A stretch of 64,000 nucleotides of DNA, from the NCBI GenBank assembly GCA_920105625.2, contig OV050033.1:131873821-131937820 (forward strand), in the 5' to 3' direction. Of the stretch, positions 9,307-56,041 are shown in pieces. Under the pieces are notes generated by a model. It did not search any database, was not told where the DNA came from, and saw only the letters and a program-made list of their open reading frames with translations. Each line of letters opens with the position of its first letter. Positions within the stretch are counted from its first letter, which is position 1. A program made the position numbers and the translations under genes. The DNA is from Clusia tigrina. Taxonomy: Eukaryota > Arthropoda > Insecta > Diptera > Clusiidae.

Positions 9307-11255
9307 ATTAAAAATTTTAGTAAGAAAATCTAAATCTAAAGAAAAGATTTTTTACCTTTTCCACATTTTAAATTCAGCAACGAAATCATCGGGATCTTCT
9401 ACATCAGCGGATCATTGCTTTTCTAAAGCACGAACAGTCTCCTGCATCTCAATAACGTCAAGATTTATGCATTTATTTGGCAAAATGTTTTCAATTTTGG
9501 AAAGCAGCTCTCGATGTTTTAAAAATCGTTCATTGATTTGGTCCAAAAAATGATCTAAAAACGGTATATAAATTGATCTGCGGTAATATTCTTTCGGTTT
9601 GCCTTCATAATTGTCGCGATTAGTTTGCCGTTTCGCCAAACGTGGAATTTTGATTTCTAAATCTAATTCTGCGGCGATTGTTTTAACTGATTCAAAAATT
9701 AGTTTAAACGATTGTTCAGAATCCTCACGCATTCACTAATTTCAGCATACAAATTATTTGCATAATCAACGCAGCTGCTCAAATCGCAGTCTATTTGCTG
9801 CAAACATAGACTTATGTGTTTTGATAATGCAAAAATTGGCTTTAGGATTGGATTGCAGTCAACAAAGCATGTGGCTTTGATAAATCACTTCTGAAATTTT
9901 CATTATCAAGCTCTTCCAACGCTGTACAGATCAATGGGAAGAAATCGTTAAATAAAGAGAGAGATTCTAAATGCTCCACCCAACGTGTTTCGCAGAATTT
10001 AAGTAACCTCACTTGCTTTGAGGTTGGAAAGGATTCTAAAATAAGATTTTTGAGCAGTGTGCCTGCTTTAGTTGACATCCGAAAAAGGTTTACGGTCTCT
10101 TTCATGGAACCAATACAATTTCTTATAGCAGGTATTTTGCAAGTCGTTGCGATGGCTAAATTCAAGCTGTGATTAGCACAGTGCACATAAAGAGCCGCTG
10201 GATATAAATTTTGGATGACACTAGCACAACCTTTGACATGTCCACTCATCGACCGCGCTCCGTCATAACCTTTAGAAAAAAAAAATAAATAAATTTAACT
10301 GTCCCAAAATTAGAAGAGTTGAAAACTCACCTTGACCCCTTATGTGTGCAAAACTTAGTTTAAGTTCTTTTAATTTATCAATCAGCACATTCGCAAGACC
10401 GCTGCCAGTTGCATCCTCAACAGGAAGAAAACATAAAAAGTCCTCTCTCAGTTTTTCCTCATTCTCAAAACGATCAACTTACCGTATACAAATTGAAAAT
10501 TGCTCAATGCCACTGACATCCGTTGTTTCATCAGCAATTATTGCAAAGCATTGAGATTTATTAATACGGTTAATAATTTTTTTTGGCATCATTTGTCCTG
10601 CTATTTCAATAATTTCATTTTGGATGCGCCAACTGAAATAAGTAGCATTTCGTGCTGCAGTTTCAACATGCTTTTTTAAATTTTCGTCGCCACTATCTAT
10701 TGCTAAACGCAAAAGAGCCCTGAAGTTCCCGTTGTTTTCAGCAGGCATTTCTAAAGAATGATTTCCTTCGTCACGATGGCCTCGTAACGCAAGTCCTTGC
10801 CTTCCGCAGACAAGCAAAACACGGATTATGGGTTGTGATTTTGCTCGATTTTCAAGCTGTTGCTTTTTGCGGCCATGATTTCTGTTAGTATATCGCGGCG
10901 CGCTGCAAATTGCTATTTGGGAAATTTCGCACACTACCAGACGCATTATTTTTCATTTTATTGTGTCGTTTTTTTCTCGTTTTTTTTGTTTTTGTTAGCA
11001 TGGAGGCAGACTAATTATTGGCTACCGAGAGGCAATTTACGTATATTCTTGTTAATTTAATTTTCTTTATTATCGCCTTAATGAATATTTAGAAGCACAA
11101 AATACATACAAAAGATCACACTTTGAACGCAGCTTACTTTTTGTGGTGTATAATGTTTGCAGCTTCCAAAATGAGGTGTGGCAGGTTTGAATATATTTAA
11201 AAATAATAAAATATATTATATTTTTGTATATATCACACCTACCGTTCGATATATA

Positions 11256-17042: not shown

Positions 17043-17167
17043 ACTAATCAATCTGAGTACATTTGTTTAAGTATTTTTGTTTTTTTTTAATGAATTATGT
17101 TTATGTTTGTTTGTTTTAATAAATTATGTTTATGTTTGTTTGTTTTAATTTATTATATTAATGTTTG

Positions 17168-19596
17168 CCCAAACACGCAAAAATTACAATCATAAATTTA
17201 TACAATAACATCCTTGAACAAGGCATTTACCCCCAAAATTGGCGAACAGCTGAGGTTGTTCCCATCCCAAAACCCAATAAAAGCAAGTATGAGTTTAATG
17301 GTTTCAGACCTATATCCCTATTACCTTGCACCGGAAAAATAACCGAGAGAATAATAGCTAAAAGAATAATGTGGTTTATATCAAAAAACAATTTAACGAG
17401 TCATAACCAAGTAGCTTTCAAGCGAAAACAAAGCACAATTGATGCACTGCTTCACTTTGAACATTACGTTACAACTTCACTTTCCACCAAAAACCGTGTT
17501 ACCGTTTTAGCTACTGATTTTCATAGAGCCTTTGACCGCATAGGAATACATGTTGTCCTTCAACAACTGGCGACCTGGGGTATAGGAAAAAAAATTTTTA
17601 ATATCGTCAGAGCTTTCTTATCAAACCGAAAAATAAGAGTTAGAGTTAATACAGTACTATCAAATACATACCCCCTCGTCAATGGCATACCGCAGGGTTC
17701 CCCACTATCGGTTGTTCTATTTATTATTGCATTCGACCAATTCAGTAAATTACTCGATGGATACAAAAATATTCAACACACAATTTACGCAGACGACGCC
17801 ATTATATTTTCTAAAACAAAAGATCTCGATACTATCAAATCTACTTTCACAAAAATACTTAATGAAATTACAAATTGGGGCAACTTCCCTGGCGCCAAAC
17901 TATCTGTTAGTAAATGTAAAATACTACATATATGTAAGAAAACCAAATGTAATTATTTTAGCCTTAAATATGATAATATAAATATTGGACTTGTAAAACA
18001 TCTGAGAATTCTTGGTGTTATTTTTGATAATAAGTTTAACTTTAAGGAGCATTGTTTACAGTTAAGAAAAAGTCTAGCCACCCGACCCAACATTATTAAA
18101 TACCTAACATCCAAACACAGTTTAATACACATTTCAACATTAATTAACATCACCAGAGCTCTCATACTTTCAAAAATAGATTACGCATTGCCAATTTCTG
18201 GATGGTGTTTTTAAAAAAAACCAAAAATCTTTGGAAGCCCCTTACAACACAGCTGTTCGCAGGAGCATCAGCGCCTTTCCAACGTCACCTTTCAAAAATA
18301 TATTCGCTGAAGCTGGGCTACCATCTATTCAACAGCAATTATCGTTGTCAACATCAAAACTCATCCCTACACTCTTCATTACTAACAACAGAGTACTGCA
18401 CAAAGACATAATGGAGGTTGTCAAGCACAAACGACAATATAAAATTAAATCCATAATTCGTAGATGTGTCCAACTCTCCAAAAACCTTGACTGGGATATA
18501 AAAGTCTGTCAAACTAAGCGACAAAGTGAATCGCCTTGGAATATAAAAGATAGCTCCTTCGCATTGATTTTACTGCAATATCCAAAAACCGTTACCGATC
18601 CCAAAGTTTATAGACAACTTTTTACAGAAACGGCAAGTGAATATATAAACAAAAAATGGAGCCTACTCTACAGACGGATCAAAAGGAACTCTTGGCACAT
18701 CATTTACTGTAGTCCACCACAACGGAAATTTAATTACGTCAGGATGTCTTCCTCCTTTTAGCTCTGTATTTACTGCCGAAGCTTTTGCTGTTAAATGTGC
18801 CATCGACTTTGCTCACAAAAATAAAGGAAACTTCCTCATATGTACAGACAGCAAATCGACTATTGAAGCCATTCGAAACTTCAATAATGATAGCAGCAGG
18901 ACCATAAACAATATCCGTAACTCGTGTATTAAATATTCCAAGAAAATAAAAATTATGTGGGTCCCAGGACATTCGGGGATACCAGGTAACGAACTTGCAG
19001 ATATAGCTGCTGCAGAGTCAATTACGGCTCCAAACTACGTCTTCCAAGTCACAGAAACTAAAGACCTACTGCGACATATAATATCTCTCCATGTTGCCAC
19101 GAACTATTGCACTTGGAAAAAATATAAACACTGTTACACCACCTTCAACACAGATGGAATGAAACCATATTATCCTGTAACTTGCTCTCGCCAACAAACA
19201 AAAAAACTTTGTACGACTCCGCATCGGACACACCAAATGCTCGAACGAGCATTTGCTACGTGGGGAACCGTTACCTAACTGTCAATTCTGTGGGGAATCA
19301 ATATCCTCGTTACACCTGCTAAATAACTGCCCCAACTTCCAAAAAACCCGTAAAAAAAATATTCCATAACCGATTCCAAGTGATTCTCTAAAAGATACAT
19401 CAAAGGATAACATAACAAAGATTAATAAATTCTTAAAATAATGCCACATCCAAAATTATATTTAAATACCTAAATAAGTAAATATGTAAAATAATATATT
19501 AAAATCGAGTTGAAGGCCCTGGTAGCTATGACTCTTCTTCTTAAATTAGTTATAATAATTTATTATTGTGATTAATCCTTTTAAATAAAATAAATA
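17168..19596 (+). mobile_element. 5'-truncated I-clade non-LTR retrotransposon nested in hAT
   Basis: An 11-bp target duplication, attaatgtttg, flanks it at 17157-17167 and 19597-19607. It ends in an A/T-rich ttttaaataaaataaat tail, as I elements do. The 5' end is truncated inside ORF2. Reverse transcriptase (17168-18214) shows GFRPISLLP, FHRAFDRIG, GIPQGSPLSVVLF and the catalytic YADDAIIF. A frameshift at about 18205 in a run of A, and another near 18750, break the frame. RNase H follows with WVPGHSGIPGNELAD at 18955-19010. RNase H after RT points to the I clade. The copy is dead. Confidence 0.88.
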
Positions 19597-29396: not shown

Positions 29397-30720
29397 CGGG
29401 GTGTGATCAAAAGATTACCGTTATTTTCATCTTTTCGTGAGTTACGTATGTTCGATGTTCGCATTTTTTTTCTGTTATGTTGGTACACATGTCTGTTATA
29501 TATTTTGGCAATACCAACCATTTTGGATTGTCAGTTCGTTTTTGACAGATAAAAAGGTTAGTCGTGTTTTGGTGTGCTCTTCGATTTTGTACTATTCGAA
29601 AAAATGGATCAAAGAAACTGTATTCAGTTTTGTGTAAAAAATGAAATTAAATGCGCAAGGACATTTGAAATGTTGACTGTGGCCTTTGGCGAGTCTACTA
29701 TGAGCAGAACACAAGTTCAATTGTGGTATAACCGGTTTAAGGAAAGCCGAGAAGATGTCAATGACGATGCTCGTCCTGGTCGCCCGAGCACGTCAACAAC
29801 CGATGAAAACATTGACGCAGTGAAGAAAATGATTTTGGATAATCGTCGAATCACTATCAGAGAGGTTGCTGATGATGTTGGTATATCGTTCGGCTCATGC
29901 CAAGCACTTTTTACGGATGTTTTAGGCATGAAACGTGCGGCAGCGAAGATTGTTCCAAAATTGCTAAATTTTTAGCAAAAACAACTTCGCATGGACATCG
30001 CTCAGGAGCTGTTGAACATCGTCAACGACGATCCAGATTTCCTCAAAAAGATCATAACTGGTGACGAATCGTGGGTGTATGGCTATGACATTGAAACCAA
30101 AGCCCAATCATCCTAATGGAAACGTCCAGATGAGCCAATACCGAAAAAAGCACGTCAAGTTCGGTCGAACGTAAAGGTTTTGCTGATAGTTTTCTTTGAT
30201 TGCAATGGCGTGGTGCATCATGAATTCTTGCCACAAGGTCGTACGGTCAACAAGGAATACTAACTTGAAGTTATGCGCCGTTTGCGAGAAGCAATTCGTC
30301 AGAAACGCCCAGAATTGTGGAAAAACCAATCATGGATTTTGCACCATGATAACGCACCAGCTCACACATCGATGCTTGTGCGTAATTTTTTGGCCAAAAA
30401 CAAAACCGTTATCGTGCCTCAACCACCATATTCACCGGACTTGGCCCCCGCTGACTTTTTCCTCTTTCCAAAACTGAAGATACCGATGAAAGGAAAGCGT
30501 TTTGCTACGATTGAGGAGATAAAAGAAAAATCGAAACAGGAGCTGTTGGCGATACCAAATAAAGCGATTCAGAAGTGTTTCAAGGATTGGAAAAAACGCT
30601 GGCATAAGTGTATTATATCTGAGGGGAATTACTTTGAAGGGCACAAGATAGTTGTTGATGAATAAATAAATACTTTATTTTTTGATCACATAATAAAGAT
30701 TATTTTTTTATCACACCTCG
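29397..30720 (+). mobile_element. Mariner element 2, full length
   Basis: 1324 bp between TA dinucleotides (29395-29396 and 30721-30722) with inverted ends cggggtgtgatcaaaag and the reverse of cgaggtgtgataaaaa. This is the usual length of a complete mariner. It contains the transposase pseudogene at 29604-30665. It is nearly identical to mariner 1 at 11256-12206 over shared sequence, so both come from a recent burst. Confidence 0.93.
29604..30665 (+). pseudogene. Mariner transposase, three in-frame stops
   Basis: From ATGGATCAAAG at 29604 one frame runs about 353 codons to the stop at 30663, with no frameshift. The N-terminal helix-turn-helix half includes SRTQVQLWYNRFKE and GRPSTSTTDEN. Catalytic motifs are GDESWVYGYD, HHDNAPAHTS and YSPDLAPADFFLFP, with 34 residues between the second and third Asp (D,D34D). 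Three nonsense codons break it: TAG at 29973, TAA at about 30114 and TAA at about 30258. Each looks like a single substitution, so inactivation is recent. Confidence 0.92.
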
Positions 30721-31945: not shown

Positions 31946-32916
31946 TGCAACATCTCCATTTTGACCAACATTGCAAAAAAGTGCATACAATGTATTCTCA
32001 GAGCGCATTCACGTCCATGTGGTATAAAATAGAAGTGAAAACCAAACATGTGTTCCTGCGATCTATGGGTAAGCTGTCGGCAATAGAATCCTGAGGTAGG
32101 TTCAAATCCTTAACAGAAGCATTTCATTTTATTTTTATATGAATATTTGTTGTGATTGTTTGGTAAAAAGTTTACTACGGCAATATCTCATGATTTATAT
32201 TTCTGCTTATTTGATTTTATACCATATTAGAAATGAATGGTGATGGAATGATGAACCCATATTAAAACAAATTTGAAAATAAAACTTTTTATGTAATCAA
32301 CGCAATTGCATTAAATTAATTCATTCAAACAAATATGTATGAGAGCAACGAAACATTGATTAGAAACACTTCGTGTCTCCAAACAAGTTGAGCCATCTTT
32401 GAATCTATCATTCCAAAAAGTCTTCCTCCCTGCGATTTTTGTATACAAGTCTTACAGAGGGAAATTGGATGCCTCTTATCATTTATGTGTCTGCATTCGG
32501 ATACGTGAATAAGTCATAAATTACCTAAGCAAAAGTGAATGAAAAAGCATTGCAATTTCTAAGGTTTTATGTTGGAAATTTATAATATATAATTTACGAA
32601 ATTGATTTTGTTTGTTCTTATAATTGTGAGCAAAACTCACATATTTAAATATACTTTGAAACTTAAATTATAATATTTAAAGTACAATATATTACATGTG
32701 CAACAAAAGCATCATATAAAGAAATGGATTTGCATACATTACACACATTATATATGTATATTACGTATATTGTAATAGAAACTATTAAACTAGAAAACTT
32801 TTCGCTTAATTTCTTTGAATATTGAGTTTAAAAATACAATACTATCGACCTACAATACTATGACCTTGCGCATCAAACAGTTTCTCTGGTCGTAAACTTA
32901 CAAACTGGAAAACCTT
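31946..32916. other. AT-rich spacer downstream of gene A
   Basis: No coding exon recognised. A short duplication near the 3' side (gaatattgagtttaaaaa at about 32817 and 32932) overlaps the 3' end of the ZAD-hAT gene A. Confidence 0.4.
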
Positions 32917-35579
32917 TCAATTGATTTCTTTGAATATTGAGTTTAAAAAGACAATACTATCGACCGCCTGGGGCATCAAGCAGTTTCTCTGGTCGGCTAT
33001 AATGTTGCTGGCCAGAGTGAAGACCCGCTCAGCAGCCGCACTACTCGCTGGAATGGACAATATTTTCACCGCAAACCTTGACAGATGTGGATACTCGGTT
33101 CGGTGCTTCTCCCACCATTCAATGGCGTCGAAATTTGTGTCGATCTGCACTTTAACCCAGCAATATTTCTGCACCTCATTCTTCACTGATTGCGATAGGG
33201 AAATTATCGTTTTTCTCGATAAGTCCGGAAAGAAGAATTCCAATTCTTTGGTAATTGTGGGCGTGCAACGAGCCTTTTTCGAGCTCGAACAGGATGGCGC
33301 ATCTGAGGTGTCTGCAGTGGAGCTTCTGGAATCGGCTTTTTCATTGTGCAATATCTCTGTGATGCAAAAGTTGCGTACTTCTGTGGTAATGCTCTCCGAT
33401 TGCATTTGATTGGTGGGCGGATACAGAAAGACGGCAGCTCTATGGTAGACGCTCAAATTTGGTGTCCACTTCGTATCGATTTGGCGTAAAATGTTACGCT
33501 TTAAACTGGATAAAGCCGGAGCATCGTCTTCCGCAACCTCACACATTTTCCGCAGACGATTTATCGACGGGTACACGTAGCAAATCGAGACATATTGGGT
33601 GCCCTGCAGTTTCTGCGATATCAGCTCAAAATGCTCGCATAGTTCGACCAGCACTTTGAGTAGGCTTATTGCGGACAAGGCATGCATTTCGGCGTTGTTG
33701 CCCAAAACTTGGTTTATTTTGGACCAGTTTTCCGTAATGGTCTTGAACAGATTTAGTTGCCGGTTGCAGCGTGTCATAAAGTGGGTTTTCTGTGTTGTTG
33801 GTAGCAAATATGGAGGCTTGGACTTTTTTAAGAATTTCAAAAGTTTATTGCAATTTTCGATTATGTCCTGCAGCTCAACTGTGGCTTCAAATGCCGCGTC
33901 TAGTACATCAGCAAACAAGTGATGAGACGAGTTGATGCGCTTCTGATTGCGGAAGGCACTTTTAATATTTGCTCCACTGTCGGTGACGAATATAATGTTC
34001 TCCAAGCTGTGTATATCGAATTCGGCCAGAATATTCTTCATTTTTTGAAGAATGTCTTCGTCGGTAGACTTATTCAAGTCCATCGGTTTCACGCCCAACA
34101 CCATTTCCTCAAATTGCCCCTCCTTGATGTAATGGAATGTGGCACACAGATAGTTGCAGTGCAAAAAGTTATCCAGCCACAAATGCGTTGTTATGCACGC
34201 TTTGGATTCATCGACAATTCTTTTAATTTCATGTTTCTTTTCCTTCTTCATGTCTGCCGCCATGGTATTGACGCGCCGCGAAATAATTGTCGAATCGGGC
34301 ACTAAATCGTTTAAATCTAAATATTCGCCAAATTTGGCGCCTATTTCGATGAACTTCTGCAACATCTTTCGGAACCCATTACCATCAATGGCCGTATATG
34401 GTCTGCAATCTTCAATCATCCACTGAGCACACGCATCCAACACGATCTGCTTCTCATCTTGCTTTAGTTGCCTGAATGGCACGTCGTTTTTCTGCATAAG
34501 GAAACACTTGTGGCGCACCAAGTTGGACGTTTGCTTGCCGTTGAACTTGTAGACCCGCTTACACGAGCGACAATAGACAATATCCTTCACAGTGGTTCCG
34601 TCTTCTTTTTGCAATTGACTGAATAAACTCCAAATTTTGCTTTTGCTCTTGGTTCTCGGCGTCAGGCGATAGACTCCATTCGAAATTTTATTCATCATCC
34701 GATGTCTATCCATGTTGCCTACGTGCAGGTACATTTCCTTTGATGAGTGGGCCGCGTTGGAGGAATCCTTTGGGGAATTTATAGCTCCAACATCGGTTTC
34801 TTGTTGCTCAATTTTATAATCGGTTGTCTCCTCCAGTTCCTGTTCCGTGACATCCTCCACAAAAGCAGCACTATTGTCACCAGCCTCTTCCATTTCCAGC
34901 TCTTCCCCGTACATTGTTTGTTCGATTTTGACTGTGTCCCACTTATCTTTCTCATCGTCAGCCACATCTTCGCATTTTATGGTGATCGGCATTTGTAATT
35001 GCGACTGCCGCACGGACACCATTATACAAAATTTTTGAAAGTTATCAATGCTAATCCAACAGTTGACACATAGTGTGGAGCTGACTGGATCATCGGGGGC
35101 CAGCTAGAAAATAAGGAATTTTTAGTTTAATTACCACAGCAAACCAATTACCAATTTAATTTAAAGTTACAAGAAATCAATTAAGTTCAAGTTTAACATC
35201 ATCTACAAATTGAGAAACAAATTCACACAAAACCACAGCAAGAGCTGACCAAAGGCTCAGACGACAACAAACCAAGCATTCGTGGTTCCCGCCCAATACC
35301 ATTGCTGTACTCTCACCTTGCTGTCTGCAATTTGTAAACAGTTTAATTAAATGTCTAAGGTACATTATAAGCATCCATGCTCCTCGTATTGTTCTTCTAA
35401 AACACCTATTACTGATAAACCTCGTCTTAATGATTCCCACATTTAATTGCGTTGTTTGTGTGTACCTGCAAGCCGATGCATTTGGCCACCGTCTCAGCGA
35501 TTCCTTTTGTATCAACGCCATCCTCATCGTACACAGGAATCAGTACCTCTTCACCACTCAGACAAAGTCGACAAGTCAT
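32917..35579 (-). CDS. Gene A: ZAD-BED-hAT fusion protein, domesticated transposase
   Basis: Two exons on the minus strand, 35466-35579 and 32917-35103, join in phase 0 (donor CAG|GTACAC, acceptor TTTCTAG) to give 766 residues. The ATG at 35579 starts the ZAD (Cys3, Cys6, Cys50, Cys53), a zinc-coordinating dimerisation domain of insect transcription factors. An acidic linker follows, then a BED-like finger (about 194-240, CRSC and NLVRH). The rest is a hAT transposase core with VTDSGAN (Asp413) and a C-terminal dimerisation motif near ASSAAAERVFTLAS. The first catalytic Asp position reads TTHLW, His345 (34183-34185), so transposition activity is unlikely. The frame is open throughout, unlike the dead hAT copies nearby. 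Likely a nuclear DNA-binding protein; target unknown. Paralogous ZAD exons lie in genes B and C. Confidence 0.82.
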
Positions 35580-36439
35580 TTCTCATTAAATCAATTATAT
35601 TTGAATCAATTCGTTTGCTATTGTTATTTAGAGACAAGCAATTAAAATTTAAGACGCTATTGCAGTCACTGTCAAAATTGTTTGGTGGCCGTGTGCAAAC
35701 ATATCCCATAAGAGAAGAAGTCTTTAAGCTATCAGCTGTTCAGAACAGTGTTACCAACTCTTGGTTTTCATTACACATCAAGCAATGTTTACATGTTTTT
35801 TATAACGGATCATTTTTAGAAAGTACATAACACAAATTTATTATTATTATTATTAATATATCTTACACCAAGGCGTTATTATTATAATACCTTGTTCCAT
35901 CATTAATGTTGGCTGCATGGGTGTGAACGAATGAGTACAAGGAACCACACTAAACTCAGTGTAGCTACACAATCATTTTACTAAAGGCGGGAGCATTCAA
36001 AAGGTTACAACAACTACAATTTCATTAAATTAAATTGTCGGTTGAATTATATTAATTAGGTGAGAAAAGCTGATCGCTAAAAACACCCTAAAAAATAAAG
36101 GAATGTAAAAAATGATTAAAAAGAAGGGAAGAAGAATTTTCCCTTGCTTCCACCTGATAAGTTCGAGGCTAAACACGTCCATGAACATAGCAAAATAAAT
36201 ACCAGGTAGAAGCATTAGTGAGACTTCTGTATCTCAAACGTCTGAAATTCATCGAAGGCTAGAAAAACAAAATATATCCAGTTGTTATTTTTTCTATTTA
36301 TATACTTTTGAAGCAAAGTATTTCTCTCTTAAGGCAGATCTTCCTCTTATCTTTAATTCTCAATAATTTTGCTATGCATATAAGTTTATAATATAGTTTG
36401 CATATACTTTATTATAGCATATCTTTTTAAATCTAAAAT

Positions 36440-37115
36440 AAATCTAATTTTGTTGACTTTCCACTGCTTTGCATATAAACACAACTACTTTCGATCAGTT
36501 CTCTTACGCTACATGTATATTATTTCCCTTAAATCATTAACATTATATATTAAATTGAAATAAAATTTAATTTTGTTGACTTTTCAAATAATCACAACTA
36601 CTTTCTCTTCGTTCTCTTACGCAGCATGTATATCATTATACCTTAAATCATTAACGCTATTATCATTATCCAATAAGTAGAAATTTAATTTTACTCTGTT
36701 GTTGCTTTCGCTCCATTCCTTTACGCTGGATGTATATCATTATGCCTTAAATTATTATCATCATTGGCTGCATTCTGGCACCCCATCGGATACCCAACCG
36801 ATCAGAATTCTCCGAATTTTTTGCAATCAGCTGATTGAGCGAACAACATTTCTTTGAGCGAAAATTTTCTACGCTACCGTACTCAACATATAGCACAGCT
36901 GTTTGTAGAACAGATGTTTACATATAAAGTAACAAATTTTTGTAGCGACGCGTTCACAAACAAAGTGCGCTGTTTCACTCACCCGATAGGCAACCGATAG
37001 GTCGCCAGAATGCTGCCATTATCATTATCTATTAAATATAATTAAAATTTTAATTTATTGACTTTTGAGTGCTTTTATACAATCTCCAAATGCGTTCCTC
37101 TACACTGCATATATA
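36440..37115. repeat. Degenerate tandem repeat, about 100-115 bp units
   Basis: Units share ttgttgactttt, ttacgct-catgtatat and ccttaaatcattaac; the last recurs at about 36530, 36645 and 36746. A fourth unit, at 37020-37110, is separated by an inserted MITE-like element (36765-37018). The array lies upstream of gene B. Confidence 0.65.
36765..37018. mobile_element. MITE-like insertion with imperfect terminal inverted repeats
   Basis: The left end TGGCTGCATTCTGGC and the reverse complement of the right end TGGCAGCATTCTGGC match over about 25 bp with four mismatches, continuing into CATCGG/TATCGG. The element is about 254 bp, has no frame, and splits a tandem-repeat unit. The heptamer ttatcat occurs close to both ends (36755-36761 and 37019-37025) and may be a target duplication, though three bases are unexplained on the left. 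Confidence 0.65.
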
Positions 37116-37435
37116 GTTTTCTACCCAACGGGCTTTTTTTTGATCTATTATAGTATGATTTCATTTTTTGACGGTTGAAGATTTAATTGAAATCATGCTA
37201 TCTATTTAATAACTAACATATGAAATATAGAAAAAGCATTTTTATTCAAACGGGCCGCAATTAAACAAATGAAACAGTTTTCGTACCATTCTGGGGAATT
37301 CCCCTCACGTTGGCATCCCTGTCTCCGGAGCAAATTTGACTTTTCCTTACAATGAAGAATTCTTGTTTTGTTTTGTTTCATCCTCCGGCATAAGAATGTT
37401 TCAAATTGTTTAATATATATACTAATAACTGAAAA

Positions 37436-40400
37436 ATGAGCTGCCGTCTTTGTCTGGGTAGTGTGGATATACTGATTCCTGTCTACAATGAAAACGGTGC
37501 TGATGTTAAAGGAATTGCGGAGACGGTCTCCAAGTATATCGGAGTCGCGGTAATCATTTTTAGTCAAAAGCCGTCTCCATTTTGCTTAGCGGCTACTTTA
37601 GATCCACCCTTAATATTTGAGTGGAGTGGTATTGAAGAAAACAAACCATAATTCCCATATTTTTGTCTAGTTGTCTCCTCAGGATCCAGTCAGCTCCAAA
37701 ATATGCATCAGCTGTTGGGCGAGTGTGGACAATTTCCAGAAATTCTGTCGTTTGGTGGCCGAGCGACAGCTCCTACTCCCAACGCCAGAGACCATACAAT
37801 GTGATGAAACAGCTGAGGAAGTGGGCAAAGAAAAGTGGGTTGAAGAGATTCAGTTGAAAGAAGGAGGAACAGTATACGAGGATGAACTGCAAATGGATAT
37901 GGAAGAGAGTGAAAAATCTCAGCTCAATTCCTTGGAAGAAGTGAAGGATGTGCTTACTGGGAAGCAGGAATTGGAGCAAGCCACCCTTTGCGAAGTAGAG
38001 CAAAAAGTAGTCAGTATTATTAAGAAACCCAGAGGACGTCCACGCAGAAAGGAGGTGACGGTGCCGAAGAAAGCTGCGATACGTGAGTCGAATGCACGCA
38101 AACTCGGACGCCCCAGTCGAAATGGTAAGCGAGCTACAAAATGTTTTATTTGTAAAAATATCCCTGAAGAATTGCAATTATAGACGCCGAAATTACAATG
38201 GACGAAGATCGTTTAATCGCCAGTTACATGAAACTGGTCTGCGATATTTGCCAACTAGAGCTGTCCACCTACAATGAACTTAAGCAACACTTTAAAACTG
38301 CTCACAATACAAACGGTTATGCTGTGTGCTGCCAGAAGAGGCTGTACAAGCGTGGCATACTTATCGATCATATTAATGTGCACAAAGATCCGGAATACTT
38401 TAAGTAAGCAGCATGGGATTTCTAAGGCTGTGTACACTGCATCAAGGCCGCTGGAGAGAAAAGAGTGAAACTCTTCTTATTGCTCAATATAATTGCTCAA
38501 CACGAAAGGTGCAGTTATGGCAACATGATCAGTTGGAGCTACTGGAAGTTTCTGATAAGATGATGAAACTACTGCAACACCGTTTAAGTCAATAATTATT
38601 CCTAGCTCTGAAGAATTATTCCAAACTCTATACATTCATGAACGACATACACTTGATTCTAATTGACAATCTATTCATTTCTATGCCATCTTCCTGCCGA
38701 AGAACATAGCGATTTCACACCTCCATCTGATCATCCTCCCATCTATTGCACCATTTGTGTTGTTGCAATTGAAATGAACAACGAAGAAGTATTTCATCTC
38801 CTTATCTCTCACCTCGTCGCCTTATTACACATCTGTTTGAAACTATTACAGATGCTCCCTTTGCTCCAATGTATTCGCCGATCGTGTGTGTTTGCGAAAT
38901 CACACTTTGTTGAAGCATAAATCAGCGGAGGAGCTACACTTCCAATGCAAGCACTGCGATAAAAAATTTGCCAAAATTTACCTTCTCCAAAGGCATGCGG
39001 TGAAGCACACCCCGCGCGATAAATGTACATTTATTTGCGACATTTGCAACAAGGGGTAAGTAAACAACTGAACTGGGAGCAGCAACTGAATCCCGGCAGT
39101 AGAAAGTCTATGATGGAAGTAGGGTTAAAGACATCAATAAGGCAGCATTATTAAACTGCTCTGTTGAAGGAGAAATACAACTCCTATAATCACGCTTCTC
39201 TGAGATTGGAATATAGGATGATTAGAGCTTGGGTTTCCTAGGCCCAGTATATACAATATAGATCCCGCAATAGTCGTAGAATAGACCCGCGAAGTCCCGG
39301 TTTTGGAGGTACTTTGTTCGCCATCAGGCGAATGACTATGTGCGATGTACTATGTGGTGGAAAGCAGATGGCTTGCCAGAACTAATTGTGGCTGCAGTGA
39401 CAGTCAGACTGGTGAAAGCCTTACTTAGTCCCCTTGTCACTTCCAAGTTGGTGCTGTTCTGCAAATCCAGATTGCATTATGTTGGAAAGCTTAATAGTAT
39501 GTTGCCAACATGGGTTCCAGGACACATGGGTGTTATGGGGAATGAATTCGCGGACAAGCAAGCGTATAAAGGATGTGAGACCACTTTTACTGGATCATAA
39601 CTTTTGGTCCGATTAGGGCCGCTATTAGAGATTGTGTTGTGTATGCACAGAATCGTGAATGGGACGTCTTAATAGGCAGCGAGTAGACGAAGGGTATGCT
39701 ACCTGTTATCTCTGACAAAACGTCAAGGTTTCTTTAGTCACTTGGTAGGATGGACTACAGACTTTTGATAGGTAGAAGACATATCATTTTATGTGGACTA
39801 ACCACCCGGAAATTATAGGCATAACAGACAGGGCTCTTTGTCCGACTTATGGGATGGAAGATGAGGCTGTTCGTGTGTGCCTCGCTTTCTCGTGAATCGA
39901 TTTTCGAGGTTTTTGGCACCGACAACTTAAATAGTGCAAACTTTGGCTCCTTAGCAGGATCAATAGTTTCATATTTTGCTGCTGGGATTCAGTTGCAAAT
40001 TCAAAGAAACAAATATGAGTGAATTCAATTTTGCAGTTACCCAACGTCGTCTCGGTTGAAATCGCACGAGAAGAATGTCCACGGCGATGGCAGTCTGAAA
40101 GTTTGCAATCACTGTGGGAAAGTTATACGTGGCAAGTACAGTTTCATACGTCACATGGAGAAGCATGAGGGGACCGCAGCGCAACGGGGTGTCCAGTGTG
40201 AGGAGTGTGGTCATTGGCTGTCGGACAAGTATTGTTTGCGTATTCACAAGGAGCGTCATCAAGATCAGGGCACATATACATGTGAACTTTGCGGCAAGGA
40301 ATCGCCCTCACGTCTGGCCATGAGTGCGCACTTTCGCTATCACCATCTGAATACGGAACTGAAGCACAAGTGCAAGGAATGTAAGAGGGAATTTAAAACT

Positions 40401-40779
40401 TCGCGAGCTTTACGGGTAATTATTCAATTGTCAAGGATCATGAGCGCACATTCTTACGTTACCGATTGGACGTGGTATTAACCTGAATTTAATATACGGA
40501 GGAGCTCTGTCTCCACGCCATGCTGCTACTTTAGTTATTGAATATAATTATAATGATATTCTTTAATTTATTCGTTTGTTTTTCTATTTTCATATATTTG
40601 CCATTTACCGCCACATTTAGGAGCATATCACCACCCACACTGGTGAAACGCTATACACCTGCACGTATTGTGATAAGAAATTCAAATGTTCGTCGAATTT
40701 GCATTCGCATCGGAAATGGCAGCATCCAGTTGAGTGGACCCGTGATAGACAAACACTTCGAACTAGAAAGGATCAGTAG
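37436..40779 (+). CDS. Gene B: ZAD C2H2 zinc-finger transcription factor
   Basis: Six exons fit in phase: 37436-37549, 37671-38124, 38184-38403, 38852-39055, 40037-40415 and 40621-40779, coding 509 residues. The ZAD has MSCRLCL and CISCW. An acidic linker carries two AT-hook-like motifs (PRGRPRRKE, KLGRPSRNG). About ten fingers follow, starting CDICQLELSTYNELKQHFKT and the compact GYAVCCQKRLYKRG, then CSLCSNVF, CKHCDKKF, CDICNKGY (split by intron 4), CNHCGKV, CEECGHW, CELCGKE, CKECKREF and CTYCDKKF. It is a nuclear DNA-binding protein of the insect ZAD family, grauzone-like in layout. Intron 4 holds a retrotransposon relic. The ZAD exon matches those of genes A and C, so all three descend from one gene. 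Confidence 0.87.
39240..39900 (+). pseudogene. Non-LTR retrotransposon RNase H fragment in gene B intron
   Basis: WVPGHMGVMGNEFAD at about 39510-39555 is the RNase H active-site segment of I/jockey-type elements. Downstream remnants include DYRLLIGRRH and a degraded Cys-containing tail. Stops interrupt it. It lies wholly inside intron 4 of gene B. Confidence 0.65.
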
Positions 40780-41400
40780 TACCCACCAAGTGCTACGTTG
40801 ATAATGACGTGAATGTTCGCTGATGCTGCTGCATTGTATTAGCTGACTCCAGTCGTTGGCTTGCTTTGGATCAATGCTTGCATGGAACCTGCTTTTTATG
40901 GTACTCAGTTACAGAGTGTAATCATGGATTCAGAAGAGAGACTTTATATATGGATATAACTAGCTTAGAATTAAGTAAAAGTACAGTGTACTGAAAGTAT
41001 AATTAAATATACTTTTTAATAAGAGAATACCAAAATATGCTCTCGCTGTATTTAGCTTTAATTTTGCGTATTTCTGCCCGAAGAATTTAGCGGCTATTAT
41101 TAAGGATGAGCTTAGCAGCGACTGTTTGGTAATCGGTGATTTGGGTAGAGCCACTTTCAAGTCACAAGTCATAATTATAGCAGCAACTGAAGTGACACGT
41201 TACTTCAAACTCGGTGAGCGAGTCAGTCAATAAACAAACCTACTCTTAAGTCGGTTGTCCATGGACAAGTCGGATAATTTTGGCCACGACCAAGACTTCG
41301 TATTCTTAATATTATTACCGAGAGCTTAGCTAAATTCCACCATAATTCGCTTTTACAGTGTGGAAAGTTTACTAAACTAATAGAAGTCTTGACTTTGTTT
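40780..41400. other. Spacer downstream of gene B
   Basis: No coding motif or repeat unit is seen. It contains the presumed 3' untranslated region of gene B. Confidence 0.4.
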
Positions 41401-41414
41401 CTTCTTTGAGGGCG

Positions 41415-41756
41415 CTACAACGGATGGTCGGTCTTGGCCGCTTCAATAAAGCTTCGCCAGACGCCTCTGGTATGCGCACTCTGGCGCCAGTTGCCAAGGC
41501 CAAGCCCAGTCAGATTACCCGGGACTTGGTCTTTCCAACGGAGATTATGTCGTCCTCTTCTACGCGTGCCAATATCGTGTTTCGAAGAATACACCTTATT
41601 AGCTGGAGCGTCCTCGGCGACGATAGGCTTCAATCCTTCACATAATACGCTCGATAGAAGCTTATATGCGATATTCAAAAGATTTCTCGACGGTAGTTGA
41701 CGGAAATCGTGGGATCGACTTTCGTGTGGACTGGGCAGAGTATAATGTGGTTCCAA
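41415..41756 (-). pseudogene. RTE-like fragment with internal deletion
   Basis: Minus-strand translation joins LLNIAYKLLSSVLCEGLK (reverse transcriptase start) directly to EDAPANKVYSSK and RRGRHNLRWKDQV (C-terminal tail). Most of the RT domain is deleted. Same family as 20940-21560 and 24880-25150. Confidence 0.7.
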
Positions 41757-42184
41757 TCACTGACCATATTCTCCAGGTACACTAACACAGAACTCCATAC
41801 CCACAACTCAAGCATTTTCATAACTTGGGCCATTTTATAAGACTTATCAACAAGTTGTTACATAGTGGATTATACTGACGTCGCTGTTAAAGTTATATAT
41901 TTGCGCTATTTATTAATAGAAATATAAATAATATAATTAGGAAACTATAATATATAATACTATATATATAATACTAATATAATATATGATGTATTATAGA
42001 ACACAGATTTCCATCCAACAACTGCTTCGACTGACATCCGTCATTCACGGTTTAGCTTTATAAAAGCTGCATGAGCACTACCAAACGATAACACTGAATG
42101 GTTACGAGCTGGTAACGTGGGAAGAATACTTCATTCACTTCGAACGCAGCAGAGCTGTGTAATAGCAACGACAATCATTACATT
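41757..42184. other. AT-rich spacer
   Basis: No gene. A short run of taatata repeats lies at 41930-42000. Confidence 0.4.
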
Positions 42185-42770
42185 CCCCTCCCAAGTACAC
42201 CCGATACTGCCACTCAAATACACCACATGCTGTCATTCAACTACACGAGACTGTCCTTCAAATTCACCCGATACTGTCATTCAAATGCAAACGACACTGT
42301 CATTCAAGTACACTCGATACTATCATTCAAATGATCTCGTTATTGATGTTCAGATACACCCGATACTGTCGTTCAAGTACACTCGTAACTCTCGTTCAAG
42401 AACTGTGGTTCAATTACACCCGTAACTCTCGTTTAAATACATCCGATACTTCAAATGCTTTACTCTCTTCAAGTTCACCCTATACTCTCTTTCAAGTTCA
42501 CCCATTACTCTAATGCCAGTTCACCCGTTACTCTCCTTAAAGTTGATCCTTTACTTTCTTTCAAGTTCACCCTTTGCTCTCCTTCAAGTTCACCCTTTAC
42601 TCCCTATCAAGTTCACTTTTTACTCTATTTAAAGTTCACACTTTACTCTCTTTCAAGTTCACCCGTTATGCTCTTTCAAGTTCACCCTTTACTCTCTTTC
42701 AAGTTCACCCTTTACTCTCTTTCAATTTCACCCGTTACTCTCCTTCAAGTGCACAGGAATAATGGTTCGA
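42185..42770. repeat. 23-bp minisatellite, about 25 units
   Basis: The 3' part (42655-42750) has clean 23-bp units of tttcaagttcaccctttact plus three bases. The 5' part is older and uses variants such as tcaaatacacccgatactgt. Divergence rises toward the 5' side. Open frames of repeated SFKFTLYS come from the repeat. It ends about 150 bp past the stop of gene C. Confidence 0.85.
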
Positions 42771-42922
42771 CTAACTAGTACATTCAGTATGCCTCGTTCA
42801 CGATCATGCTCAGCTGTGTACGCGGTTTAAGGTGCATGTCCATGTTCGTGGGCTGCCTACCACCTGTAGATGAACAAATAAAATGTATATGAATCCTGCT
42901 ATATAGTGAATAAATCTGTAAC

Positions 42923-45900
42923 TTACAGATTGGCGTTCAAAAACATCATTCGGCCCACTTTTCTCCCAAAGAATCTATTTCGCCGTTCTATCAGTGTGAG
43001 TCCAGCTTTCGAAAACACATTTTCAGACGGCATGGAACTCGCCGCAATACACAGACGTCTCCTCATGATCTCGTACAGATGTGGGTAGGCTTCTCGTTTT
43101 TCGTGCCACCATTTCAGGGGATTGTTATTCCTTGGTAATATCTTTTCTTGTAGGTATTTATCAACTTCCATGATCCCTATTTCCATGGGATTACTGTTGT
43201 TAATGATTTTGTCCACTTCACGATCGAATTCGTCCCATATACTGCCCGACTTTTTAGGTGGTGTTGGGCTCTTGGAATCATCGACTGCAGTAACAACAAC
43301 CGGTGGGGTATTTATGGGCATTTTGCATACTAAATCCTTCAAATCAGTGCAAGCTTTCAGGTAAGCAGTTTCACTTGTAAATCCATGCCGCTTGAAGCGC
43401 GGGTCCAAAAGCGTGCTTTCGGCAAACATAGAATCTTCTTCCAATAGCGAATACCTTTTGGACAACTCAAATAAAAGCCTATGACCCATTTTTTTCACAG
43501 AATGGGGAAGATTCTCTCGTGACAGGACTTGCGAGCATTTATTTTTGAGAGCGTTCGCTATCAGAATCACCTCGGATATGATGAAATTGCTGTCTGAAGT
43601 CATCTCCTGAGTGGCGTTTCTAAAATACGACAACAACTCATTAGCGGCTGTTAGAATAGCAAAGTCTTCAAGGTTGACGTTAACCATATGGGAATAGTCC
43701 TTGGTAATTATGGTCAACAATTTTCCTTTCAACTGAATGAGCATGTCAAACATGTCACACGTTGAGCTCCAACGTGTGGGCACATCTGGCTTTAATTTGA
43801 GTGGTGTTTGACCCAATGTAACTTGTAAGGAATGTAAACTCTGGGCAGCCACAGCATCACTGTGAAACATTTCCGCAATGGCTCTGAATTTGGCGTGTGT
43901 CTTTCGTATTTCCAGTAAGCCAGCCTGGACGATCAAATTCAACATGTTTGCAAAACACTGAATTTGCGTCCAATCACTCCAAATAACTGCCGCTCCTCTT
44001 GTGGTGCCGGCATAGTCAATGGTTAGAGCCACTACCTTGCTGGTTATCAACCACTTATCACATATTTTCTTGAACTCCTCGCGTAACTGGTCCGCTGTAT
44101 CTTTATCGCCGTACTTGTAGCAATCCAGCATGACCGACTGCAATTCAGTGTCCTTATTAATAAAGTGGCCGCTGATCGCAACGTAATTGGAGTCTGGCCC
44201 AGATGTCCAGCAATCCGTTGAAATGGACACATATTCGGCGGTGCTCAACAGTTGCTCCACATTTTTTCGCGCTATGTCGTAATAGGTAACCACCAGAATG
44301 TTGGTCAGTTCTTCTCGGGTCGGTATGCAGTACATGCAGTTGAGCTCTGAAACAAAATTCTTGAACTCTTTTGTCTCCACCAGCTCCAGAGGCAAGTAGT
44401 TCTTCGACATGAACTCAAGCAAGTATCTGGTCAGTAGTTCATCTCTATCTTTATTCGATATTGTGGACTTTTGCACATAATCTGGTGTGAGGTTCGAGCT
44501 GTGATTTTCGGTGACTGTAGAACCAAACATTTCGGGGGAAAATTCACTGGAGTTTGTTGATTGCATGTGTTCAGGAAATGTAGTGGGCGTACGCTCCGAC
44601 AAACTTTCTCTGCTTTTTGTAACTCTCTTATTCTTGAATGCCAATGAGTTAGTATCCTGACGGATGGCAGCAAAAATGATTGGATGCTGCGATTTGGTGT
44701 GCCGCGTCAAATTGTACGGGCCTCCGCCTCTATAGGACATCACTTTACCGCAAAAATTGCACTTTGCCTTGTAATTCCTCAGGTCAGTGAAATACAGCCA
44801 AGCCCTGGAACATCTTAAACTGAATTGAGAGCTCCTAAAAGGGGAAAAACACATCTATTTAAAAACCGCTGCAATGAGGCAAAGTAATGGCAATATATAC
44901 AAGCGGTTAAATATATATAAATAAAGTAGATATGCATAATATAATATAATATAAATCATCCATGGAACCACAGTAAGAACTAAACAAACGCAACTTCTGT
45001 TGAGTTGACTACCCCACGCCCTCCGCATTGACGTACAAACATTTCACATTTTGAAACCGGATGAGAGGGAGTGTCAGAGTCACACCGACAACAGGAGATG
45101 GATAAAGATAGGAGGGTATGGTCAGGCAATGCAAATGAAATATCTTTTGAGATGAAAAGCGCTACATGAGTTTTCCAAATTGGTATTTTATCAGTTATAA
45201 TACCCAAGAACTTTTATCAGGCCCAAGTGTCAGTTCCCTTTAAGAAACGGAACAAGGATCTGCTAAATTTCTTGAGCATGCCTGATATAGTATACCGTGA
45301 AGAGGGATGAAGCATATATGATCATAATTTATCCATTACAACTGCTTACTTCAATACGGAGTCAGGATTTTTATGTATATGAATATGCTCAATAAATGTG
45401 TCCCGGTTATAGAACGTCTTCCGACAACACACCGCATATCCATTTATATTGTGAACAGTTCTATAATGATTCCTGAGTTCGTTATAGGTGGCAAACTCCA
45501 ACAGGCAAACATCGCATTTAAGTTTCGTGTGGCTGGCAATTAAACTGGCTTCATCCAAAGGGTTTGCGTCATCTATATTTAATACAGAAAACATAAATTA
45601 CATTATTCATTCATTTTAATAGTATTCATAAATTTGATATGTTTGACCTACAAATTCTCATCGGGTTATCCAGATGACTTTCATTAGTTTTTGCCATAAT
45701 TTCCTCTGTTGTGTTTGTGGTCACATTTTCAAATTCTTTTGACTCTTGTTCGTATGATGTGTCCTCGAATCCCGGTTCGCAAATCAGGTTACTTTTCTCG
45801 CTATCATCCCCTTCCAAATCCAGTTCATCCACGTATATTGCGTCCTCTTCCATTTTAATTTCCGCATTCCATGTAGTTTCACACTCAGTTGCTGCATGGA

Positions 45901-46282
45901 ATTTTTTCTTTTCTGGCAATTCCAACTGTAATTGCCTCTCTTTCACTAATTGGCAGAACTTATGAAAATGATCAATATTAGCCCAGCAACGTAGACATAT
46001 TCTGGTGCTCACCGGATCATCAGGAACCAACTGGAAATGGTACAACAAACACAAACAACGGATACACTCTTTCTCCTTGCAAACTACAACTAATTCTAGC
46101 TTCAGCAAACATATTGTTTTAAGTTTAAAAATACGTGATTTGTGTTTGTTTTAAATGCAAATTATTACCTGTACATGGACATATTTGGCCACTGTCTCTG
46201 CAATGCCTTTAGCATCAGATCCACAATCATCGAAGACAGGAATCAATATTTCCTCCTTAACTAAACAAAGCCGGCAAGTCAT
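42923..46282 (-). CDS. Gene C: ZAD-C2H2-BED-hAT fusion protein
   Basis: Four minus-strand exons fit in phase: 46169-46282, 45652-46030, 45350-45572 and 42923-44834, coding 875 residues. Exon 1 is a ZAD start (MTCRLCL) and exon 2 completes it (CLRCW) with an acidic linker. Exon 3 gives two C2H2 fingers (CDVCLLEFATYNELRNHY and GYAVCCRKTFYNRD). The last exon begins with a classic BED finger (Trp251, Cys264, Cys267, His284, His289) and a hAT transposase with STDCWTS (Asp446), TIDYAG (Asp512), LLDPRFKRHG and the C-terminal PSENVFSKAG. The first ATG after the acceptor lies inside the BED finger, so the transposase exon needs the upstream exons to make a whole BED. Unlike gene A, both recognisable catalytic Asp remain. 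The exon 2 donor (t|GTAGGT) is the weakest junction. It could instead be a ZAD gene next to a hAT copy. Confidence 0.75.
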
Positions 46283-48308: not shown

Positions 48309-49717
48309 ATGTTTCGCAACATTGTGATGGGCATCTCCGGCGGTGTGGACAGTGCAGTTTCTGCTTTCTTATTGAAAGAAAAAGGTGAGCTTTCAACTAT
48401 GGACATAAACTGCCTGATCCTAATTCTTAAATATTTATTATGATTTATATCTCAAGCAAGGTTACAAAGTGTTGGGCGTGTTTATGAAAAACTGGGATGA
48501 GTTTGATGAGACGGGCCGCTGTTCCGGAGAACAAGATTTGTTAGATGCTGAGTACACCTGCCATAAACTTGATATCGAACTGCAACAGGTCAACTATGTG
48601 AAGGACTACTGGAACTCTGTATTTACGTGGGTTAAACTATGCAGATGTTTATCATTTTTGTTAATAATAGTTAATATAACTATTTTTAGACATTTTCTTG
48701 AAGACTATCAAAATGGTTTAACACCTAATCCGGATATATTGTGTAATAAATACATCAAGTTTGATCTATTCCACAAATATGCGATTGAGAATTTAAAATA
48801 CGATGCTATAGCCACAGGACATTATGCGAATACATCATATGGTCCTTATTTAGAGAATTATAGAGATGATGATGGTAAATTTTCATTTAGCATAACCTAT
48901 TTATATGTATTCCTATGTAATTTTCACCTCTCCCAATGCAGATGTTCACCTCTTGTTGGCCAAAGATAGTCTTAAAGATCAAACGTTCTTTTTGTCTGGT
49001 GTTCAACGCTCATCCCTGTGCCGCGCCATGTTTCCTTTGAGCCATTACTTAAAGTCGGAAGTTAAGCAATTGGCACGCAAATGTGGCCTGGAACGTTTGG
49101 CCAATAAGAAAGAGAGCACAGGTATATGCTTTGTGGGACATCGAGATTTCAAGGAGTTCATTAAAGAGGTAAAATAAATTTAATTAAAGCTTAGTTCAAA
49201 TAAATACAAATTTTTATTTCAGTATATACACTCCAAAGTGGGTAATTTCGTAGACATAGACAGTGGTGCAATTGTAGGCGAACATGAAGGCATCCACCAG
49301 TGGACAGTGGGACAACGTTGTCGTTTGGCCTCCTTTTTACAGCCCTACTTTGTGGCCCAGAAGCATGTAGCATCAAACACAATATACGTAGCGTCTGGGA
49401 CTTTTCACCCTGCCTTATACAACGATAAAGTACACACAACAAACGCCAATTGGCTGTGCTCGGATCCATTTGCAGAAAACGGAGTTTCATTGCACTGTCG
49501 CTTTCGTTTTCAGCATACGAAACCTTTGGTCAATTGCACTGTTTATAAAAGTGAGGGAGACACCTCGGATTTAACTGTGATACTAGACAAACCGTTGCGT
49601 GCCATTACTCCCGGGCAGTATGCGGTATTCTACAGTGACACAATTTGTTTGGGATCAGCGCGTATCACCAGCTCTACAAAAGTGAAAGACTCGGAGAATT
49701 TGAGATATATAATATAG
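48309..49717 (+). CDS. TRMU: Mitochondrial tRNA-specific 2-thiouridylase (TRMU/MTU1)
   Basis: Five exons fit in phase: 48309-48384, 48461-48626, 48690-48874, 48942-49168 and 49223-49717, coding 382 residues. The enzyme makes 2-thiouridine at the wobble position of mitochondrial tRNA Lys, Glu and Gln. The N-terminus has the ATP-pyrophosphatase P-loop SGGVDSAVSAF, then GVFMKNWDEFDE. The two catalytic cysteines lie in TPNPDILCNKYIKF and KESTGICFVG. KDQTFFLSG, HQWTVGQR and a C-terminal PGQYAVFYS beta-barrel segment also match. All five exons carry expected family sequence without a gap. Little precedes the P-loop, so any mitochondrial presequence is short or cryptic. Length is close to the family norm. 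The minisatellite starts about 180 bp downstream. Confidence 0.95.
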
Positions 49718-54145: not shown

Positions 54146-56041
54146 TTACGTTAGGAGTACGGTCAACGCATCTAGAAATCTAGTCAAATCACTTTGTCGA
54201 ATTTGTATGAGCGAACCCTCGAAAAAATCCTGCAATATTGTAGATTTACTCTTCAGGGCTGCCTGCTCGAATGCTTTGCCAAAGAAGTTCTTCGGTGAAT
54301 CCTCCCGCACAGGCGGTATGCCGACCAGTAGAGAAAGGCCTCGCTCTACATCGACCGGACAGCTGGCGATCAAGGGCAATTCCGGTGCCTGTCTGCTACG
54401 CGATACCGCTACTTGGCCATTCAGTATAAATTTCGCCAACAACATCAGTCCGTACGGATACGAAAAGAACGTATTCTCTTCGTTTAGTATGAAGTAAAAA
54501 AATGAGCCCGTCGAATGCACCTGATGGGCCTCAAGACTGCTTTGGACTTGCTTAAACACCGCCGAGAACAGAAGTTTCGCATTATCGATGCCAACCGTGA
54601 GTATATCTTTGTGATTCCGTGACAGACTGTCGAGTGCCTCAAGAAAGCAATCTTCCGGAGTTTTGTCTTTTCTCACCGATTCCAATATGGCCAACATGCC
54701 GTGTACGTAGTCGGCCCCAGAGAACCGATTTCGATAGCCATAGTTCAGCGTGAATGAACCATAAACTATATCAGGTATGCCGTATTTTTCCGCCAATTTC
54801 TCCACCATCGAGTAGAATTCGTGTCTCAACACCAAATCCATGGCACCAAAAGTTTGTCTAGCATGGACCAGCGGGAGGCCCATTTCGACCAGCAGCTCAT
54901 GTAGTCTCTTCTCACCGCGCAGTGTCCACAATTTCAGTTTACACGCAGAATACATGGTATATCTAAAATAATTGTTGGTATTTATTAAATTCTTACAAAA
55001 ATGTCTAATATGCTATAACCTCATTGATTCCACCACTGTCCAGTGACGATACAAAACCAAGTGCAAATCATTCTCGAAATTAATCTTTGAAGCACTCATG
55101 TTGCTCTGATCGTTGGTTTTGTTGGTGAGTCGCGTCACGTGCGACTGTATATTCTCTATTTCCAATGTGTAAATACTGCTCTCAATTTTGCCCAATATCA
55201 GTTGCTCGGTTACACCCACAATAGCCCACCACAGCAAATCCATATTATCTTTCGACAATTTCCAAGCCAATTCAAATATGATCAACGCTGATGAACGACC
55301 ATAAAAGCTGTATTGCGTATATTCGAACATGATGCGATCACGTTCATTCTCCCAAGTACGTCGCTGACGCTGTTTCAGTATGCGATTCGCATGCTTTTCC
55401 ATGCGACTAAGTTTCTTCGCCGGTGGCCTTGCATTGTCATCGGCATTCTCGGCATCCGATTCTCCAGCGCCACTGTCGTCTGCATTATTAGCAGGATCAT
55501 CATTGTCATCGTTGTCGTTGTCGTTGTCTTCGTCATCCCCTTCCGTATCTGATTCGCAGAAGATGGTATCAAAAGCGGGTATATTCTCTTCCAGAGCGGG
55601 ATCACCAAATATGCAGACCTTTAAAGAGATTCCAAGATATAATTCTTCACACCTTGCATACGTACTCCCATTTACCTGTCTATCGCTGTATATGTTGCAG
55701 ACATCCAGTGGCCTGTGTGAATCACAAATGAAGAATATTACATCCTCTTCCGGCTGCAGCAGTTCGATTATGTCCACACAACCACCGCAATTGATCAGTA
55801 GAACGTACTTAATATCCCCTTGATGATCATTGAAGGCCCGCTGCAAACCGGCCATGCCCATGATCGGCACCACCGAATACAGCATGTGATCGTACTTGAA
55901 CAGAACTTGCAGTATCTTGCTGGCGCAGATGGCATCGATATCATAGTTGACAATGATCAGTATACGCTTGCCGATCAGTCTGTTGTAAAACTCCTGTCTA
56001 AGATTTTGTATAAACATATTTTCTAAAGCGTAACGCACCAA
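54146..56041 (-). CDS. CDC45: Cell division control protein 45 (CMG helicase subunit)
   Basis: Three minus-strand exons, 55676-56041, 55020-55618 and 54146-54962, fit in phase and give 593 residues. CDC45 joins MCM2-7 and GINS to form the replicative helicase in the nucleus. The N-terminus has the RecJ-like DHH-type core (IIVNYDIDAICASKIL) and DSHRPLDVCNIYSD. An acidic Asp/Asn-rich stretch (ESDTEGDDEDNDND onward, about residues 145-185) and a basic segment follow, as in the family. Then come QYSFYGRSSALI and LWWAIVGVTEQL; the C-terminal exon has LKLWTLRGEKRLHELL and MGLPLVHARQTFGAMD. Intron 1 (55619-55675, 57 bp) lies between SDRQ and VCIFGDP and has no stop in frame. Divergent from MMS22L, 1.1 kb away. 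Confidence 0.95.

Follow-up and report, generated by a model that had tools for sequence, protein, structure and literature searches.

Zinc-finger genes of the KRAB type have captured transposases in tetrapods, and DREF is a domesticated hAT. We know of no ZAD in the ZBED genes, DREF, DAYSLEEPER or Kat1. As far as the available parts of the respective papers describe them, the ZBED genes (PMC10027918), DAYSLEEPER (PMC3499209) and Kat1 (PMC4763223) are single-copy host genes which combine a BED finger with a hAT dimerisation domain, as do two of the genes described here. For tetrapods, the available text of PMC8290160 reports 106 host-transposase fusions that arose via splicing; these resemble our genes in having a transposase exon behind the exons of a host domain and in keeping the DNA-binding part.

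ZAD proteins with a DNA-binding domain of the transposon type have been found before. According to the accessible part of PMC9810180, two ZAD-ZNF genes of Drosophila melanogaster, CG6689 and CG10431, carry THAP domains. These are a real precedent; they have the THAP domain only, in N-terminal position, and their C2H2 fingers are kept. Of the 91 Drosophila ZAD genes surveyed in PMC7655104 (available part), five are named as lacking C2H2 fingers and 13 as having another domain at the N-terminus, and no hAT is found among the ZAD genes named in section 5 of that paper. A ZAD-hAT fusion was not found in open-licence papers, which is a weak negative, most matches being titles only.

Here we describe a cluster of three ZAD genes, A, B and C, from the fly Clusia tigrina. 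They occupy positions 32917-46282 of the window, by which we mean the whole stretch of 64,000 nucleotides that was analysed. We consider it probable that A and C are host-transposase fusions of a grauzone-like ZAD family, and predict from their sequences that they code for DNA-binding regulators which do not transpose. The splice-mediated capture described for tetrapods (PMC8290160, available part) fits gene C. Compared to the tetrapod captures of that source, the cluster differs in the arthropod ZAD as the host domain, in the two unrelated hATs within three genes, and in the intra-exon position of the join in A. Unlike in CG6689 and CG10431, whole BED-hAT transposases replace the finger array in A and C. 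Fusion as such is known, and ZAD-hAT fusions are a possible insect counterpart of the vertebrate transposase captures.

The ZAD cluster and its exon plan

The first-pass annotation had claimed three ZAD paralogues with a first exon of 114 nt, phase 0 and near-identical plan, and this is borne out by domain scores, intron phases and exon-by-exon matching (Table 1). The spliced ZADs of all three genes pass the Pfam cut-off of 28 bits for zf-AD (PF07776). Without exon 1, exon 2 scores 17.5 bits in A, 25.8 in B and 27 in C, all of them under the cut-off, so that it is the join of exon 1 to exon 2 which makes a passing ZAD. Each ZAD has the four cysteines of zf-AD, arranged as two CxxC pairs, and pairwise identity between the three is 61-63%. 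The first three introns of B and C have phases 0, 1 and 2 at matching places. When the genome was searched with the ZAD of A, the three genes of the cluster, with two exons each, accounted for the top six of 25 matches, and the seventh match had an E-value of 0.001. The ZADs of the putatively fused genes are under constraint, with NG86 values of dN 0.25 and dS 1.24 for A and B, and of dN 0.26 with saturated dS for A and C.

Table 1. Predicted features of genes A, B and C, with positions in the window.
Gene	Feature	Position	Strand	Spliced ZAD (bits)
A	exon 1, first ZAD half, 114 nt, phase 0	35466..35579	-	48.3
A	intron 1, GT-AG, predicted	35104..35465	-	
A	exon 2, second ZAD half, acidic linker and whole Hermes-like BED-hAT transposase; 728-codon open frame	32917..35103	-	
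A	transposase-derived part from retained internal Met, 599 codons + stop	32917..34716	-	
B	exon 1, first ZAD half, 114 nt, phase 0	37436..37549	+	49.8
B	exon 2, second ZAD half and linker	37671..38124	+	
B	exon 3, fingers 1-2, counterpart of C exon 3	38184..38403	+	
B	exon 4, C2H2 fingers	38852..39055	+	
B	exon 5, C2H2 fingers	40037..40415	+	
B	exon 6, last finger and stop	40621..40779	+	
C	exon 1, first ZAD half, 114 nt, phase 0	46169..46282	-	55.9
C	exon 2, second ZAD half and acidic linker, ends in phase 1	45652..46030	-	
C	exon 3, two C2H2 fingers (the first canonical, the second a variant), phase 2 at its end	45350..45572	-	
C	intron 3, GT-AG, predicted; join of host part and transposase	44835..45349	-	
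C	exon 4, BED-hAT transposase	42923..44834	-	

Among solved structures, the only chain found with the ZAD of C was that of grauzone (1pzw). A protein search with B gave 31 matches, which include ZAD-zinc-finger relatives in Bactrocera and Rhagoletis, proteins of Episyrphus and Musca and, among these matches, grauzone-like proteins of hoverflies and the house fly. On the basis of these two results, the cluster is classed by sequence similarity as grauzone-like. The best tephritid matches of B are just 38-47% identical, so that the protein database appears to hold no B of a close relative. A hAT domain is listed in none of the 31 matches.

B codes for 509 aa in six exons (37436-40779) and is a ZAD-ZNF gene, with an array of about ten C2H2 fingers behind the ZAD; this number, counted by eye, agrees with what had been noted earlier. 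ZAD, acidic linker and the intron plan common to the cluster are those of grauzone-type ZAD-ZNF factors (B; 1pzw). However, A lacks the C2H2 array and C has two fingers, and in both a BED-hAT is found instead. A and C are ZAD proteins and not ZAD-ZNFs, since A has no C2H2 match and C has one canonical finger below cut-off and one variant. Within intron 4 of B (39056-40036), a frame at 39280-39600 resembles, by eye, the RNase H piece of a LINE.

Predicted joins between ZAD exons and transposases

In A, the second ZAD half, the linker and the transposase share one frame which is free of stop codons, more than expected by chance, and the predicted product has 766 aa. Host and transposase parts are joined here in one predicted frame within one exon. 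The C-terminal part aligns to residues 3-606 of Hermes (E 3.6e-128; 36% identity over 603 residues), and the hAT dimerisation domain (PF05699) scores 73.9 bits. It had been proposed that A enters a BED-hAT within the same exon. The open frame confirms this, but the BED is of the Hermes type: it matches the BED of Hermes (8eb5) and Pfam DBD_Tnp_Hermes, and not Pfam zf-BED. The linkers encoded by exon 2 of B and C can be aligned with that of A to about their ends, the last stretch weakly, after which the frame of A continues directly into the transposase. This would place the join at or near the position of intron 2. A stretch of 72 nt at the coding end of A, last codons included, is repeated 115 bases further on with 88% identity (32779-32965).

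C has a predicted product of 875 aa, and every intron is of the GT-AG type. Zf-BED (36.4 bits) and the hAT dimerisation domain PF05699 (64.9 bits) are both over cut-off. B and C match exon by exon up to exon 3, where both have the donor GTAAGC in phase 2. In B, the exon that follows codes for more fingers, whereas the next coding exon on the strand of C is the BED-hAT exon; later finger exons like those of B were not found behind exon 3 of C in the window. The acceptor of exon 4 keeps the frame and ranks first by pyrimidine content among the 53 YAG sites of 42923-45349. We thus have a predicted splice of the ZAD and finger exons to the BED-hAT exon, by which host and transposase parts would come into one frame across a phase-2 GT-AG intron, with the join at intron 3. 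The order of two C2H2 fingers and then a BED-hAT exon stands as first annotated, except that only one finger is canonical (20.9 bits, under the Pfam value of 25.2), the second being a CC...H..H variant by eye, and that the join is a predicted one. The joins of A and C, as modelled here, are two joins at two places. Just behind the stop codon of C, a degenerate 23-base tandem repeat is located (42192-42754).

Unfused proteins would be possible because both hATs have kept a methionine upstream or internally, which is the transposase's own first one at residue 168 in A and lies at 44854 in C, where the frame opens with MCFSPF. The hAT parts would then be separate or domesticated genes adjoining ZAD genes, translated from these methionines, with ZADs that are short proteins or not made at all. 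Stand-alone relatives in the same genome (L010 and L014, see below) would fit with this. However, given the single frame of A, every transcript that includes ZAD exon 2 codes for the fusion, and in C the B-like donor of exon 3, the lack of B-like finger exons behind it in the window, and the agreement in phase between the hAT frame and the most pyrimidine-rich acceptor all speak against separate genes, which we regard as unlikely.

The hAT domains, their relatives and their active sites

The transposase part of A is of the Hermes type, while that of C is of the Ac/ZBED-like kind, with a butterfly protein (P0001, 45%) as its closest match. In a tree of 16 sequences the two are found in separate, well-supported groups, and in none of 200 bootstrap trees do they form one clade. 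The dissimilarity noted at first sight thus reflects two unrelated lineages, and two independent transposase captures within one ZAD cluster are likely. Both proteins belong to the hAT superfamily, as each has a BED-type finger and a C-terminal dimerisation domain.

Each of the two hATs has one full match among the matches listed for the genome of 1,214,047,780 bases. For A, the next best among at least 75 matches listed are L010 with 59% identity and then L011 and L012 with 45%. For C, the next best by score among at least 71 matches listed is 28% identical, and identity rises to 44% in shorter matches to parts of the dimerisation domain. Around both hATs there are several partly complementary pairs of 12-28 nt, viewed with no chance control (21 pairs for C, the 25 longest of 30 for A), and none is evidently a hAT end. 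With no clear inverted repeats and a single full match each, neither A nor C was classed as a hAT element.

Two relatives in the genome have an unbroken, stand-alone Hermes-like frame that starts with methionine: L010 (G000:C3:35657064-35658869), with 601 codons, and L014 (G000:C2:200383571), with about 644. A ZAD like those of A, B and C was not found, at E-values up to 1, in the 17 kb upstream of L010 or in the 7.5 kb upstream of L014. From their sequences, L010 and L014 look like further domesticated hAT genes, in this case without a ZAD. L011 and L012 are 99.7% alike over 3.5 kb, and L013 shares 1.7 kb with both. Because the likeness of L011 and L012 extends beyond the transposase, they may represent one duplicated stretch rather than two insertions.

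The search for an orthologous ZAD-hAT fusion in relatives, which had been suggested as a check and covered the protein database, found none for either gene: there was no fused relative of A among 6318 candidates (0 matches), and the 6 matches to C among 4589 candidates were all transposase-only. The reason may be a restriction of the fusions to this lineage, masking by annotation pipelines, or a lack of sensitivity in the search. Within the genome, 123 hAT and 107 ZAD matches were placed, and only A and C have the two within 15 kb; in the next closest pair they are 18 kb apart, with the hAT upstream. The hAT matches are most of 146 obtained with A and C as queries, second pieces of a locus being left out. 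The ZAD matches are most of 25 and 108, after overlaps were merged and part of the weakest matches, those near E 0.09, dropped. In viral contigs, no match to the patterns of the hAT of C was found.

Six active-site positions of Hermes were scored (D180, W182, D248, H268, W319, E572). A has lost two of the six, D180 being changed to H and W319 to C. In C, the only loss is H268, changed to N; D, D, E and both tryptophans are kept, and DY replaces DN behind the second Asp position. Neither protein has the complete active site of an active hAT transposase, though in C the triad itself is intact. Losses number four of six in L010 and one of six in L014, and L011 and L012 keep all six. A, C, L010, L011 and L014 all retain the zinc ligands of the BED. 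Five residues are described as essential in the available part of PMC6027215, and these include D180, D248, W319 and E572. The accessible text of PMC4763223 states that changes of H268 severely harm Hermes, and also that the tryptophan of Kat1 which matches W319 can be changed with activity kept, so that W319 is not essential in all hATs.

That C keeps D, D, E and most motifs would also be expected if the fusions were working transposases steered by the ZAD, the element having taken up a host domain and not the reverse. This is hardly credible, as both are single copies without clear inverted repeats, A lacks D180 and C lacks H268, and the ZADs sit in a cluster of paralogues with shared introns.

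Open frames are retained in both genes. Over 598 aligned codons, A and L010 have a dN of 0.27 and a dS of 2.02 (saturated), and their differences at codon positions 1, 2 and 3 number 154, 113 and 310; part of this constraint may date from ancestors that were still transposing. In a neutral simulation started from A, an open frame together with changes in at least two of the six codons had P <= 0.0077 at any divergence tried, and a probability lower still when indels were included. This figure is a rough bound, since the simulation starts from the present A and counts any amino-acid change. One-of-a-kind copies, lost active-site residues and the constrained frame of A are signs of domestication.

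Recent insertion of hATs into dispensable ZAD duplicates, with frames that are open through youth alone, would make A and C incipient pseudogenes. The richness of the window in transposon-like frames, judged by eye, and the intact D, D, E of C agree with such an origin. Yet neither hAT has a close copy among the matches listed (at least 71 for C and at least 75 for A), clear terminal inverted repeats are lacking around both, and drift gives the open frame of A with its lost active site a probability of at most 0.008. We consider recent insertion improbable and retain the reading as domesticated fusions.

The BED of C is identical to that of P0001 at 36 of 43 positions, compared to 249 of 589 elsewhere in the protein (Fisher p 8e-8). 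For A and L010 the corresponding values are 31 of 46 and 321 of 552 (p 0.14), an excess which is not significant, and the excess in the BED of A against Hermes is weak and no stronger than in plain transposase pairs (L011 and Hermes, p 0.049). Following this difference, selective keeping of the DNA-binding part appears well supported for C and is only suggested for A.

Possible origin and working of A and C

We propose that C arose when a hAT landed in or beside intron 3 of a ZAD-ZNF copy, the later finger exons being gone now, and that A arose from the insertion of another hAT where exon 2 ends in a second ZAD copy. Active-site residues are changed while the zinc ligands of the DNA-binding fingers are kept, which points to A and C as likely DNA-binding regulators. 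ZADs dimerise and are required for nuclear localisation, that of Grauzone included (PMC5081699, available part). In the fusion protein, the ZAD would accordingly be expected to carry the protein to the nucleus and to pair two molecules. As described in the available part of PMC10368747, Hermes brings several BED domains together by multimerising and so locates the sub-terminal repeats at its left end. A ZAD dimer would place two BEDs side by side on paired sub-terminal repeats within old, scattered hAT ends, and the eroded catalytic core would serve assembly only, with no cutting. The bound protein would switch nearby genes, or shield or compete for the ends of hATs still present; possible targets are L011 and L012, which have a complete active site.

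A wider reading is offered as a tentative one, on the whole doubtful. ZAD clusters might be an insect platform for transposase capture, like KRAB genes in tetrapods, two unrelated hATs having entered one cluster of three genes. The ZAD-Hermes protein, itself catalytically dead, might be a home-made repressor, its BEDs paired via the ZAD on the ends of Hermes-like elements of the same genome (L011-L013). If ZAD genes too gain DNA-binding ends by capture, the route would hold across distant animal groups and unrelated host domains. It could be tested within one cluster, for which the unfused paralogue B is the control. A brake on hATs that is made by the host is a further role for which a dead transposase with a kept BED and a gained dimerising domain would be a candidate.

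As to the surroundings of the cluster, four frames of the window are transposon-like by eye (8364-10952 on the minus strand; 15298-16937, 17162-19278 and 29562-30665 on the plus strand), and among them are what look like further hAT-like transposases, a transposase of the mariner type, and the reverse transcriptase of a LINE together with RNase H. The frames at 54146-56041 (minus strand) and 48424-49717 (plus strand) resemble by eye CDC45 and a tRNA 2-thiouridylase, respectively, and we take them to be ordinary neighbours. Another ZAD gene, of a different subfamily, lies 15 kb past the end of the window (L068, G000:C3:131952981-131953235), and frames near it resemble by eye a PAK-type kinase and ribosomal protein S19.
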